DNA of 64,000 nucleotides. It comes from Labrenzia sp. DG1229 (GTDB lineage: Bacteria; Pseudomonadota; Alphaproteobacteria; Rhizobiales; Stappiaceae). Position 1 is the stretch's first letter, and each line of letters begins with the position of its first letter. The notes beneath the pieces were generated by a model. The model worked only from the letters and a program-made list of their open reading frames with translations, was not told where the DNA came from and searched no databases. This document shows, one piece after another, positions 35,845-37,440 of the stretch. Location: assembly GCF_000521215.1 (NCBI RefSeq), contig NZ_KI928931.1, positions 68,023-132,022 of the forward strand, written 5' to 3'. The translations under genes were made by a program, and so were the position numbers.

Positions 35845-35910
35845 CGCATAAACCCGCCATGCCCCCCCGGTTTATGCGCATAAACTTTGGTTCATTCAGG
35901 GGTTTATAAG
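35845..35910. promoter_or_regulatory. Repeated CGCATAAACC half-sites (hairpin/operator cluster)
   Basis: CGCATAAACC (35845-35854) is inverted as GGTTTATGCG (35869-35878), which overlaps a third copy CGCATAAACT (35877-35886), giving the 14-bp palindrome TTTATGCGCATAAA (35871-35884). A weaker GGTTTATAAG lies at 35901. The first two could be a terminator stem of the DadA-like gene, but no T-run follows; together they look like an operator cluster ahead of the PepSY-LuxR genes. Confidence 0.45.
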
Positions 35911-36014
35911 CCTTAGGCCAATGGCGAAAACAACATTCCCGGATCCAAATCGGGTCAAGCCGGTGAGTTGTTTACCGGTGATCTGACCTCCAATCAGGAC
36001 AAGGAATGTACACG

Positions 36015-36320
36015 ATGAAAAAGACCTTCACCTCTTCAGCTCTCACGATTTTTTCTGTCTCGGGCCTGCTCGCCAGCATGGGTGTTGCCGCGGCTGCCGT
36101 TTCTCTCGGTGACAATCTCGGCACGACGGAAGATGAAGTTCGCTCGGCTCTGACAAGCCAGGGTTACGCCGTTGAGGAAGTCGAAACGGAAGACGGCAAA
36201 CTGGAGGCTGAAGTCACTCTGGATGGCCAGGAGATGGAAGTTGTTGTCGACGCCAGTTCCGGCTTGGTTCTGGAAGTGGAACTTGAGGATGACGAAGACG
36301 GCGACAAAGACGACGACTGA
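36015..36320 (+). CDS. PepSY-domain secreted protein
   Basis: 101 residues from ATG 36015 (AAGGA nine bases upstream). Residues 1-27 form a signal peptide (LLASMGVAAAA). The mature part (LTSQGYAVEEVETEDGKLEA then VVVDASSGLVLEVE) is a PepSY domain with an acidic tail. PepSY proteins inhibit or modulate peptidases and bind metals or peptides in the periplasm. It precedes a membrane LuxR-type regulator and a second PepSY protein. Confidence 0.78.
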   Translation: MKKTFTSSALTIFSVSGLLASMGVAAAAVSLGDNLGTTEDEVRSALTSQGYAVEEVETEDGKLEAEVTLDGQEMEVVVDASSGLVLEVELEDDEDGDKDDD

Positions 36321-36465
36321 TCTCTGACTAGCGTTCGCATCGGCCCCGACCGGACCAGCCTGGTTCCACCGGTCGGGGCACTTGCAAACCTGCACTCGAA
36401 GAAATTGGTATAGTACTAACCGGTGAACAGGTTCTGTTCGGAAACAAAAGTGAAAGGGAATGTGC

Positions 36466-37029
36466 ATGCCATCCTTGGAACGTTTGAAAACCACTTGGCC
36501 ATGGCTGCTCGTCGGCTTGCAGGCGGTTTGCGTCCTGTTCCTTGTGGGTGAAGAATTTGCCGATCTGTTCTGGGGGGAAACCCCAGGCACGGTGATCAAT
36601 ACCGACATTCTCGAAAATCTGGTTGTTTCGGTGTTGCTTGTCAGTCTTGTTGCGTCTGGCCTGGAAGTCAGAAGGGTGATGACCAGGCAAAAGCGCCTGG
36701 AAAACCAGGTAAAGGTGGCGTCAGGCGAATTTGCCGGCATGCTTGAAGAACATTTCGAGAAATGGGCGCTGACACCGTCCGAATGTGACGTTGCAATGCT
36801 GTGCCTCAAGGGTTTTTCCATCGCTGAAATTGCAGGTATTCGAAAGACTGCAGAAGGGACTGTGAAGGCGCAGTGCAACGCGATTTACCGGAAGGCAGGT
36901 GTGAGCGGGCGTCCGCAACTCCTCTCTCTTTTCCTGGACGAGCTTCTCTATGGAGCCGTTCTGGCCGATGGAGCAACGAACAACGGGCAAAGTGAACGCA
37001 GATCCCGGCTTCTTCAGGTTCAGGCCTGA
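36466..37029 (+). CDS. Membrane-anchored LuxR-type helix-turn-helix regulator
   Basis: 187 residues from ATG 36466 (GGGA seven bases upstream). Two hydrophobic helices (about 10-30 and 45-65, WPWLLVGLQAVCVLFLVGEE; LVVSVLLVSLVASG) are followed by a coiled region and a LuxR C-terminal helix-turn-helix (LTPSECDVAMLCLKGFSIAE ... TVKAQCNAIYRKAGV) at about 105-160. A membrane-tethered DNA-binding protein; it may sense a periplasmic or membrane signal. The flanking secreted PepSY proteins could be the sensor inputs or targets (inferred). Confidence 0.8.
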   Translation: MPSLERLKTTWPWLLVGLQAVCVLFLVGEEFADLFWGETPGTVINTDILENLVVSVLLVSLVASGLEVRRVMTRQKRLENQVKVASGEFAGMLEEHFEKWALTPSECDVAMLCLKGFSIAEIAGIRKTAEGTVKAQCNAIYRKAGVSGRPQLLSLFLDELLYGAVLADGATNNGQSERRSRLLQVQA

Positions 37030-37158
37030 GACAGTCACGTCCGCCTGTTTGTGCCAAGCGCTCGCGATTGATGGAATATCTTTAATTTGCAAGTCTTCTT
37101 CAAATACCCATTTCGCTTTGGGTAGCCGGCATTTGCCGTCACGATCCTGGAGTAGAAC

Positions 37159-37440
37159 ATGTCTCATTCAAAAACCTGTCGCGGTGTGCAAACCGGTCTT
37201 CTGGCGTCTTCCATCCTGATTGGAACCGGTGCTGTCGCGATCGCACAAATCCAGACCGGGGACACGGTCGGTACCTCGGTTTCGGAAATAGCGCAAAAGC
37301 TCGAGACCAGCGGCTACGACATTCGCGAGATCGAAGTGAAGAACAACCGCATCGACGTCGATGTTCTGCTGGATGGCAGCAAACTGGAAATCAAGGTCGA
37401 TCCCCGATCCGGCGAAGTGATAAGGGTCGAAATCGACTAA
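37159..37440 (+). CDS. PepSY-domain secreted protein (second copy)
   Basis: 93 residues. A signal peptide MSHSKTCRGVQTGLLASSIL...AVAIA then a PepSY domain: KLETSGYDIREIEVKNNRID then EIKVDPRSGEVIRVEID. GGAG sits about seven bases upstream. It shares the pattern (GD, AQKLETSGYDIREIE/SALTSQGYAVEEVE) with the protein at 36015 at low identity, so the two are diverged paralogues bracketing the LuxR gene. Confidence 0.78.
   Translation: MSHSKTCRGVQTGLLASSILIGTGAVAIAQIQTGDTVGTSVSEIAQKLETSGYDIREIEVKNNRIDVDVLLDGSKLEIKVDPRSGEVIRVEID

Follow-up and report, generated by a model that had tools for sequence, protein, structure and literature searches.

The window analysed here, a stretch of 64,000 nucleotides from the genome of Labrenzia sp. 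DG1229, contains three adjacent genes in which two small secreted PepSY proteins flank a predicted membrane-anchored LuxR-type regulator. The locus raises the question of how a transcription factor with almost no periplasmic part could be informed about the periplasm, and what the PepSY proteins contribute. The reading favoured here, with a probability of roughly 0.6, is that the cassette would constitute a self-regulating system consisting of a membrane LuxR, a PepSY partner and an output directed at b-heme proteins.

Organization of the cassette

The genes are arranged on the plus strand in the order PepSY1, two-helix membrane LuxR and PepSY2, with a cluster of half-sites upstream of all three (Table 1), an arrangement recognised in the preliminary description of the locus and recovered here in full. 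PepSY1, which has an alternative start at 36006, and PepSY2 both exceed the curated PepSY_2 cut-off of 24.3 bits and the regulator exceeds the GerE/LuxR cut-off of 23.5 bits, while the signal peptides of the two PepSY proteins were judged by eye from the translations. The 5' neighbour is a gene for an FAD-dependent oxidoreductase and the 3' neighbour is an Lrp/AsnC regulator gene on the minus strand. This Lrp flank is retained in several Roseibium relatives and was not seen at L026 and L041, both with the three-gene unit intact. The window comes from a Roseibium-like alphaproteobacterium, and its closest named relative found is R. album, whose regulator is 97% identical. The inverted repeat between PepSY1 and luxR is a possible attenuating or stabilising hairpin that may set PepSY1 expression above that of luxR. 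No TAAAC half-site was seen by eye in the segment ahead of PepSY2 (37030-37158). Elsewhere in the window genome a third PepSY_2 protein is encoded (G000:C4:99863-100105; L020, L036), unlinked to the cassette.

Table 1. Features of the PepSY-LuxR cassette, in window coordinates.
Feature	Position	Strand	Description	Basis
Half-site cluster	35845..35910	+	Four half-sites within 66 bp: 35845-35854 (+), 35869-35878 (-), 35877-35886 (+), 35901-35910 (-)	Word matching
Conserved operator dyad	35881..35894	+	TAAAC-N4-GTTYA, proposed LuxR binding site	10 upstream regions aligned; part of non-Roseibium loci
-10-like box	35905..35910	+	TATAAG at fixed distance from the dyad; putative promoter	Spaced-pattern matches
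CAATGG-type element	35919..35924	+	Just past the predicted start site	By eye in many upstream regions
PepSY1	36015..36320	+	Small secreted PepSY_2 protein, acidic C-terminal tail	ORF; PF13670 40.4 bits
Inverted repeat	36343..36379	+	GC-rich, perfect, 11 bp, without T-run, between PepSY1 and luxR	By eye
luxR	36460..37029	+	Membrane LuxR-type regulator, 189 aa	PF00196 28.9 bits; AlphaFold
TM helix 1	36493..36549	+	Residues 12-30, holding Q21 and C24; acidic residue 31 just beyond	Hydropathy; family alignment
TM helix 2	36592..36648	+	Residues 45-63, holding conserved E52	Hydropathy; family alignment
Helix-turn-helix	36769..36927	+	GerE/LuxR, residues 104-156; K136 in recognition helix	PF00196; AlphaFold; regulator sequences
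PepSY2	37159..37440	+	Second small secreted PepSY_2 protein	PF13670 52.0 bits

Predicted topology and family of the membrane LuxR

The hydropathy profile of the regulator displays two hydrophobic segments, and the AlphaFold model, of moderate confidence (mean pLDDT 78.5, pTM 0.50), places a helix at residues 6-38 and another at residues 42-101 with a 3-residue turn between them, followed by the helix-turn-helix and a long C-terminal helix. Membrane anchoring, as proposed for this protein from the outset, is upheld as a prediction by the segments and by the modelled hairpin. The two hydrophobic helices, together with an acidic tip and basic flanks identified by eye, suggest that both ends of the regulator are cytoplasmic. 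No autoinducer-binding domain of the acyl-homoserine-lactone LuxR type was matched in Pfam at E<=1, and the Pfam and NCBIfam profile searches returned no receiver or kinase domain. The best NCBIfam match was NF047608 (8.8e-17, residues 71-163 on profile positions 70-162 of 166), the LIC13292 family transcriptional regulator, which going by its name we take to be a Leptospira family. Size and helix-turn-helix position are similar in the two, the N-terminal hairpin is unmatched, and with 61.7 bits against a cut-off of 200 the regulator falls outside that family.

The earlier remark that two helices are all the protein has by way of a sensor undervalues the hairpin, in which a polar signature is conserved. 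Among 84 distinct family members, Q21 is conserved in 76, an acid at position 31 in 76 and E52 in 73, and C24 and an acid at position 35 occur in 59 and 62, respectively; two further alignments took in 24 and 28 hand-picked regulators. Residues 21, 24, 31, 35 and 52 are thus candidates for a sensing or docking surface. The same conserved residues would also suit an explanation in which PepSY is output only and LuxR senses within the membrane itself, either redox via C24 or protons or metal via the acidic residues 31, 35 and 52, inducing PepSY and heme-b membrane proteins that would jointly handle metal or heme electrons in the periplasm. We rate this explanation as possible, if on balance improbable. 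The 3-residue turn of the model also counts against a PepSY partner, since the docking surface available to it would be small.

Conservation of the PepSY-LuxR neighbourhood

The cassette genes are conserved as a unit. Scanning GTDB genomes for relatives of the regulator yielded 33 loci, found through peptide words of the window's own regulator and consequently skewed to close relatives; 31 of them have a PepSY or PepSY-like gene on the upstream side, separated in some by one further gene. The two exceptions are L069, which is at a contig end, and L053 from Nitratireductor, at which two membrane LuxR genes stand in tandem (L053:5226-6471) and no PepSY neighbour was detected. Among Roseibium-genus orthologues (at least 241 bits) PepSY lies upstream in 14/14, so the gene-neighbourhood check suggested for the locus gave no sign of independent occurrence. 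PepSY2 is less constant, being found downstream in 10/14, and was dropped as a defining part of the cassette; of the initial notion of two flanking PepSY genes as a unit, the upstream member stands. In Roseibium the constant neighbour of the orthologous regulator is therefore PepSY and not a b-heme gene, which argues against PepSY as output only.

At E<=1e-12 the family was detected in 25/45 genomes of the genus, 14/240 of a class draw and 39/398 of a phylum draw, all of them lower bounds, since scoring covered a share of the first-look candidates, namely 8 or 14 in larger genomes. The 18 class-draw matches comprise nine with a PepSY or PepSY-like neighbour, two with cytochrome b561 alone (one divergent), two with diheme cytochrome c genes and five with none of these. 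In the phylum draw 30 loci of 53 matches were inspected, mostly the better-scoring ones and many from one family; PepSY or PepSY-like genes are nearby in 21, cytochrome b561 only in three and neither in six. The class and phylum draws have five loci in common, and 30 of the 39 genus-draw matches had loci. A control of 45 loci (155 kb, mostly ferric-reductase loci) contained two PepSY matches, both adjoining distant ferric-reductase homologues. A PepSY neighbour was absent from the inspected stretch at L076, L077, L080, L083 and L087 (class draw), L109 and L112-L114 (phylum draw) and L133-L138 and L140-L143 (genus draw), and none was seen in a lower-scoring subfamily comprising L133-L138, L143 and the second copy of the window genome. 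The family as a whole thus cannot depend on PepSY. That PepSY-less regulators, such as that of L014/L030 with its own upstream dyad, retain the two-helix architecture is again compatible with sensing by the regulator itself.

Neighbour calls differ in their basis. The Rhodobacterales neighbours were named PepSY-like from an iterated profile and alignment alone; none of eight proteins, taken from seven of the 11 loci L058-L068 (L058-L062, L064, L067), had a Pfam match at E<=0.01, PF13670 included, and the profile iteration may have drifted, L062 having risen to the top match. Neighbours in L090-L107 were found with profile A2 and, like those of Rhodobacterales, are best termed PepSY-like. ORFs in relatives are the longest ORFs, with approximate starts, and some neighbours may have been missed, for example a b561 gene in L079. 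The order PepSY-cytochrome b561-LuxR is displayed by the Kiloniella loci, L055, L072, L073, L105 and six Roseibium-genus loci (L128-L132, L139), the b561 calls having been tested with Pfam PF01292 for L047, L055 and L072 and made by our own profile or by resemblance for the others. In L074 and L075 diheme cytochrome c (DHC, PF09626) genes occupy the PepSY position; the regulator family there adjoins DHC genes, with a DUF1924 gene in L074, in an arrangement resembling SHP/DHC operons (L074:1453-3480, L075:2-1989). The second family member of the window genome lies on contig C18 (G000:C18:201823-202278; L015, L031), without a PepSY neighbour.

Half-site cluster and conserved dyad upstream of PepSY1

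The cluster of half-sites initially reported upstream of the cassette is present, with four sites, but its perfect CGCATAAACC pair is not conserved and the inner dyad is. Exact CGCATAAACC copies number two (35845, plus; 35869, minus), the site at 35877 (plus) having one mismatch and that at 35901 (minus) two. At up to two mismatches the whole window holds 55 matches against 48.9 expected; the word is thus clustered here and not enriched overall. The CGCATAAAC-N16-GTTTATGCG geometry has its best match in the 7.6 Mb genome at this place (0 + 2 mismatches), with one other match of 3 mismatches, and shows no genome-wide enrichment (3 matches per strand against 6 for the reversed control), while exact CGCATAAAC words in 12 loci were confined to L001, the window's own copy. 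Perfect pairing of the outer CGCATAAACC sites was found in the window alone among the 10 upstream regions aligned; even R. album (L037) lacks it. As the outer CGCATAAACC/GGTTTATGCG pair begins 13 bp past the stop codon of the oxidoreductase gene, it might be mainly a hairpin at the end of that gene, the iteration being partly accidental. This is unlikely, since 7/9 relatives have a TAAAC half-site at the aligned position, a half-site that thus looks selected, and the outer pair is without a T-run.

In the ten aligned Roseibium upstream regions the dyad TAAAC-N4-GTT is conserved in 10/10, in most together with upstream half-sites and a downstream GGTTTATAAGC-like stretch. The TAAAC-N4-GTTTA dyad is positioned 25-26 bp (start to start) ahead of an ATAAG -10-like box. 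If ATAAG is taken as the -10 box, the dyad lies over the -35 region, the position expected of an activator that replaces the -35 element; LuxR may thus be an activator at its promoter, and a repressor is also possible. The CAATGG-type element recurs by eye with the dyad and -10 box in other loci. A TAAAC half-site upstream of the module is found as well in Kiloniella, in a Tepidamorphaceae MAG and in other MAG loci. In 29 non-Roseibium loci, the 250 bp upstream of the module are 15.9-fold denser in [AC]TAAACC and 18.8-fold denser in TAAACN4GNT than the rest of the loci, each pattern occurring in 13/29 and having been picked after the upstream regions had been seen.

Combining TAA[AG]C with ATAAGC at fixed spacing gave 28 unique matches in 2.08 Mb, both strands counted. 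Of these, 25 sit immediately before the module and one lies elsewhere; the remaining two (L080, L109) overlap the regulator's own promoter in a different register. The spaced pattern had no match in L058-L068 or L090-L107. Similarly, no dyad was found within 250 bp ahead of the divergent PepSY-like genes at 10/10 Rhodobacterales loci, L063 having a single half-site. Genome-wide dyad counts were rejected as evidence for a regulon, because the matches do not exceed those of reversed controls (3 against 7 in one such count) and position and co-occurrence alone are informative. The half-sites are very probably the operator of the regulator.

Predicted operator type and recognition-helix residue 136

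A second dyad type links the sites to the regulator. All 14 unique TAAGC-N4-GCTTA dyads in 1.04 Mb, for which chance expectation estimated from base counts is about one, belong to loci with Arg at recognition-helix position 136 of the regulator, and this position is Lys in 25/25 displayed regulators with a TAAAC site, a set from which L079 was excluded as it had been grouped as TAAAC with no TAAAC site found there. The grouping by operator type was set after the sites were seen; related regulator sequences are not independent, and each operator class covers several genera. In the sequence examined the exact TAAGC dyad is absent at three Arg136 regulators (L111-L113). Many Lys136 regulators had no detectable TAAAC dyad; as the Rhodobacterales regulators are among them, Lys136 alone is no predictor of a TAAAC site. 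That dyad type tracks residue 136 points to autoregulation, and we strongly infer that LuxR very probably binds the dyad and controls its own expression. A TAAGC-N4-GCTTA dyad also stands directly ahead of PepSY-less family regulators at L014:2073-2086 and L141:1403-1416, suggesting that these regulators too may be autoregulated.

A distal site at a ferric-reductase-like gene

The sole perfect TAAACC-NN-GGTTTA dyad of the window genome is located 96 bp before a gene for a ferric-reductase-like membrane protein (PF01794, 36.5 bits against 28). Across 45 genus genomes the perfect dyad was found in five, all with a regulator orthologue, three at the PepSY-luxR promoter and two (close relatives) at the reductase; since the reversed control occurred in eight genomes against these five of 45 (one strand), the positions alone are informative. 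With a weight matrix built from PepSY-side sites only, a dyad scoring at least 8 precedes the ferric-reductase gene in 13/14 genomes with the regulator orthologue and in 2/9 without it. Here 23 close orthologues out of 29 reductase matches were scored, the cut of 8 was fixed after the scores had been seen, and the Fisher p=0.001 is too optimistic because the genomes are related and the labels clustered on the tree. G682, which has the orthologue, scores 6.2, with 4 of 200 shuffles as high, and G686, counted as having the site, scores 9.3, with 9 of 200 shuffles as high; both are borderline. The distal site is present without a regulator orthologue in G695 and G685, and G672, classed as lacking the orthologue, has a PepSY-b561-LuxR set of the Arg136 type. 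A further pattern gave eight matches in six genomes, four of them at the ferric-reductase gene, against 29 for the reversed control; a quick look at the other four (L177, L180, L183, L184) revealed no common ORF theme. Distal sites occupy two differing positions and orientations, which suggests that they may have arisen by repeated gain or turnover. From these predicted sites we strongly infer that LuxR probably controls membrane heme-b proteins.

The regulator could instead be constitutive or a minor relic, with the half-sites belonging to another transcription factor and the neighbourhood kept by operon inheritance alone. The regulator-site link is itself predicted from sequence, and the Rhodobacterales loci examined yielded no dyad; against this, the dyad type shifts together with residue 136 and the distal site follows orthologue presence across the genomes scored, rendering such an explanation highly improbable.

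In two same-genus genomes a PepSY gene is directly beside a distant ferric-reductase homologue (L176:937-2569, L171:2336-2653), and at L176 a response-regulator gene is divergent to the PepSY-ferric reductase pair, as if the same job were run by a two-component counterpart of the cassette. PepSY adjoining b-heme genes under another regulator, as in L176, or beside a reductase, as in L171, would also be in line with PepSY as output only.

Relation to known signalling systems

PepSY domains occur widely, and what exactly they do has been termed unclear (PMC12714742). In Vibrio cholerae dbfRS is preceded by the gene for the PepSY protein DbfQ, which binds the kinase DbfS; PepSY genes are found close to two-component genes at more than 60 times the chance frequency, and PA2658 with BqsS in Pseudomonas is a predicted pair only (PMC12714742). 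As in DbfQRS modules (PMC12714742), a gene for a small secreted PepSY protein immediately precedes the membrane signalling module, two PepSY genes are present in some cases, and the gene neighbourhood is enriched. That PepSY recurs beside sensors, with one direct interaction demonstrated (PMC12714742), speaks against an output-only role. In DbfQRS, however, PepSY partners a histidine kinase that has a periplasmic sensory domain and works with a response regulator, and direct PepSY binding has been demonstrated (PMC12714742); the cassette, for which such binding is a proposal, has a single membrane LuxR which, unlike DbfS and DbfR, would do both jobs with almost no periplasmic part. A DbfQRS-like assignment was discarded, the signalling gene next to PepSY being luxR and not a kinase and response-regulator pair.

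The co-component systems ToxR/ToxS, VtrA/VtrC and PsaE/PsaF each couple a transcription factor in the membrane to a partner on the periplasmic side (PMC9214523). The cassette resembles them in having a predicted membrane-tethered transcription factor and a small putative periplasmic-side partner from an adjacent gene, with which its gene order and predicted topology agree. In contrast, these systems have a CadC-type N-terminal HTH, one TM helix, a periplasmic domain and a lipocalin-like partner (PMC9214523), while the cassette displays a C-terminal LuxR HTH, two TM helices and soluble PepSY; a VtrA-like architecture was therefore rejected and no sequence relation is claimed. We read the cassette as an undescribed variant of co-component signalling, with a membrane regulator and a periplasmic partner.

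Operons for SHP, DHC and cytochrome b carry an accessory periplasmic protein (Orf1) and the sensor kinase SK1 (PMC2909971). Genes for membrane cytochrome b and diheme cytochrome c beside a regulator and a small periplasmic protein are the feature in common, DHC genes adjoining this LuxR family at L074 and L075, but the operons are under sensor kinase/response regulator control (PMC2909971), and neither LuxR nor PepSY occurs in the main text of PMC2909971. Transmembrane LuxR regulators of gut Actinobacteria, described as membrane-bound (PMC9734109, PMC11585353), have the LuxR type and membrane location in common with the cassette regulator and are likened to it by description only. Among the papers listed, no title or abstract opening describing a PepSY and membrane LuxR cassette was found, and the search for PepSY with cytochrome b561 found no paper. 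The initial impression that the arrangement is undescribed holds, among the literature found, for LuxR plus PepSY; PepSY proteins encoded beside two-component systems, however, have been described, one of them binding its kinase (PMC12714742).

Proposed mechanism and implications

The cassette is proposed to act as a self-regulating one-component signalling unit. Judging by sequence and model, LuxR would cross the inner membrane as a hairpin of two helices that keeps both of its ends cytoplasmic and points its acidic tip at the periplasm. A LuxR dimer would bind TAAAC-N4-GTTTA dyads, as conservation and the co-variation of base and residue suggest, one dyad overlapping the -35 region at the promoter of PepSY1-luxR and a second, in Roseibium, preceding the distant ferric-reductase-like heme-b gene. 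Secreted PepSY, apparently the most constant product of the promoter, would most probably act as its partner on the periplasmic side, informing the hairpin of envelope, metal or redox state, by analogy with DbfQ and DbfS. That PepSY gates the regulator in this manner has, on the same analogy, a little better than an even chance. The output would adjust PepSY itself and electron transfer via membrane b-heme proteins, the target being cytochrome b561 inside the operon in other lineages and an unlinked ferric reductase in Roseibium. Evenly balanced is the broader view that these loci represent a widespread, undescribed alphaproteobacterial class of one-component transmembrane LuxR regulators, whose domainless acidic TM hairpin would be gated by soluble periplasmic PepSY and which through TAARC-N4-GYTTA would control PepSY and b-heme genes as a phosphorelay-free counterpart of DbfQRS.

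DbfQ gave one answer to the question of PepSY function, for kinases. If the proposal for the PepSY and membrane LuxR cassette is true, the same kind of periplasmic partner can also drive transcription without a phosphorelay, through a regulator that has virtually nothing in the periplasm. With a predicted operator in two specificity classes and a distal target, the idea is directly testable and would link PepSY to membrane heme-b electron transfer. The cassette would thus be a compact route to sense the periplasm and to adjust electron transfer.
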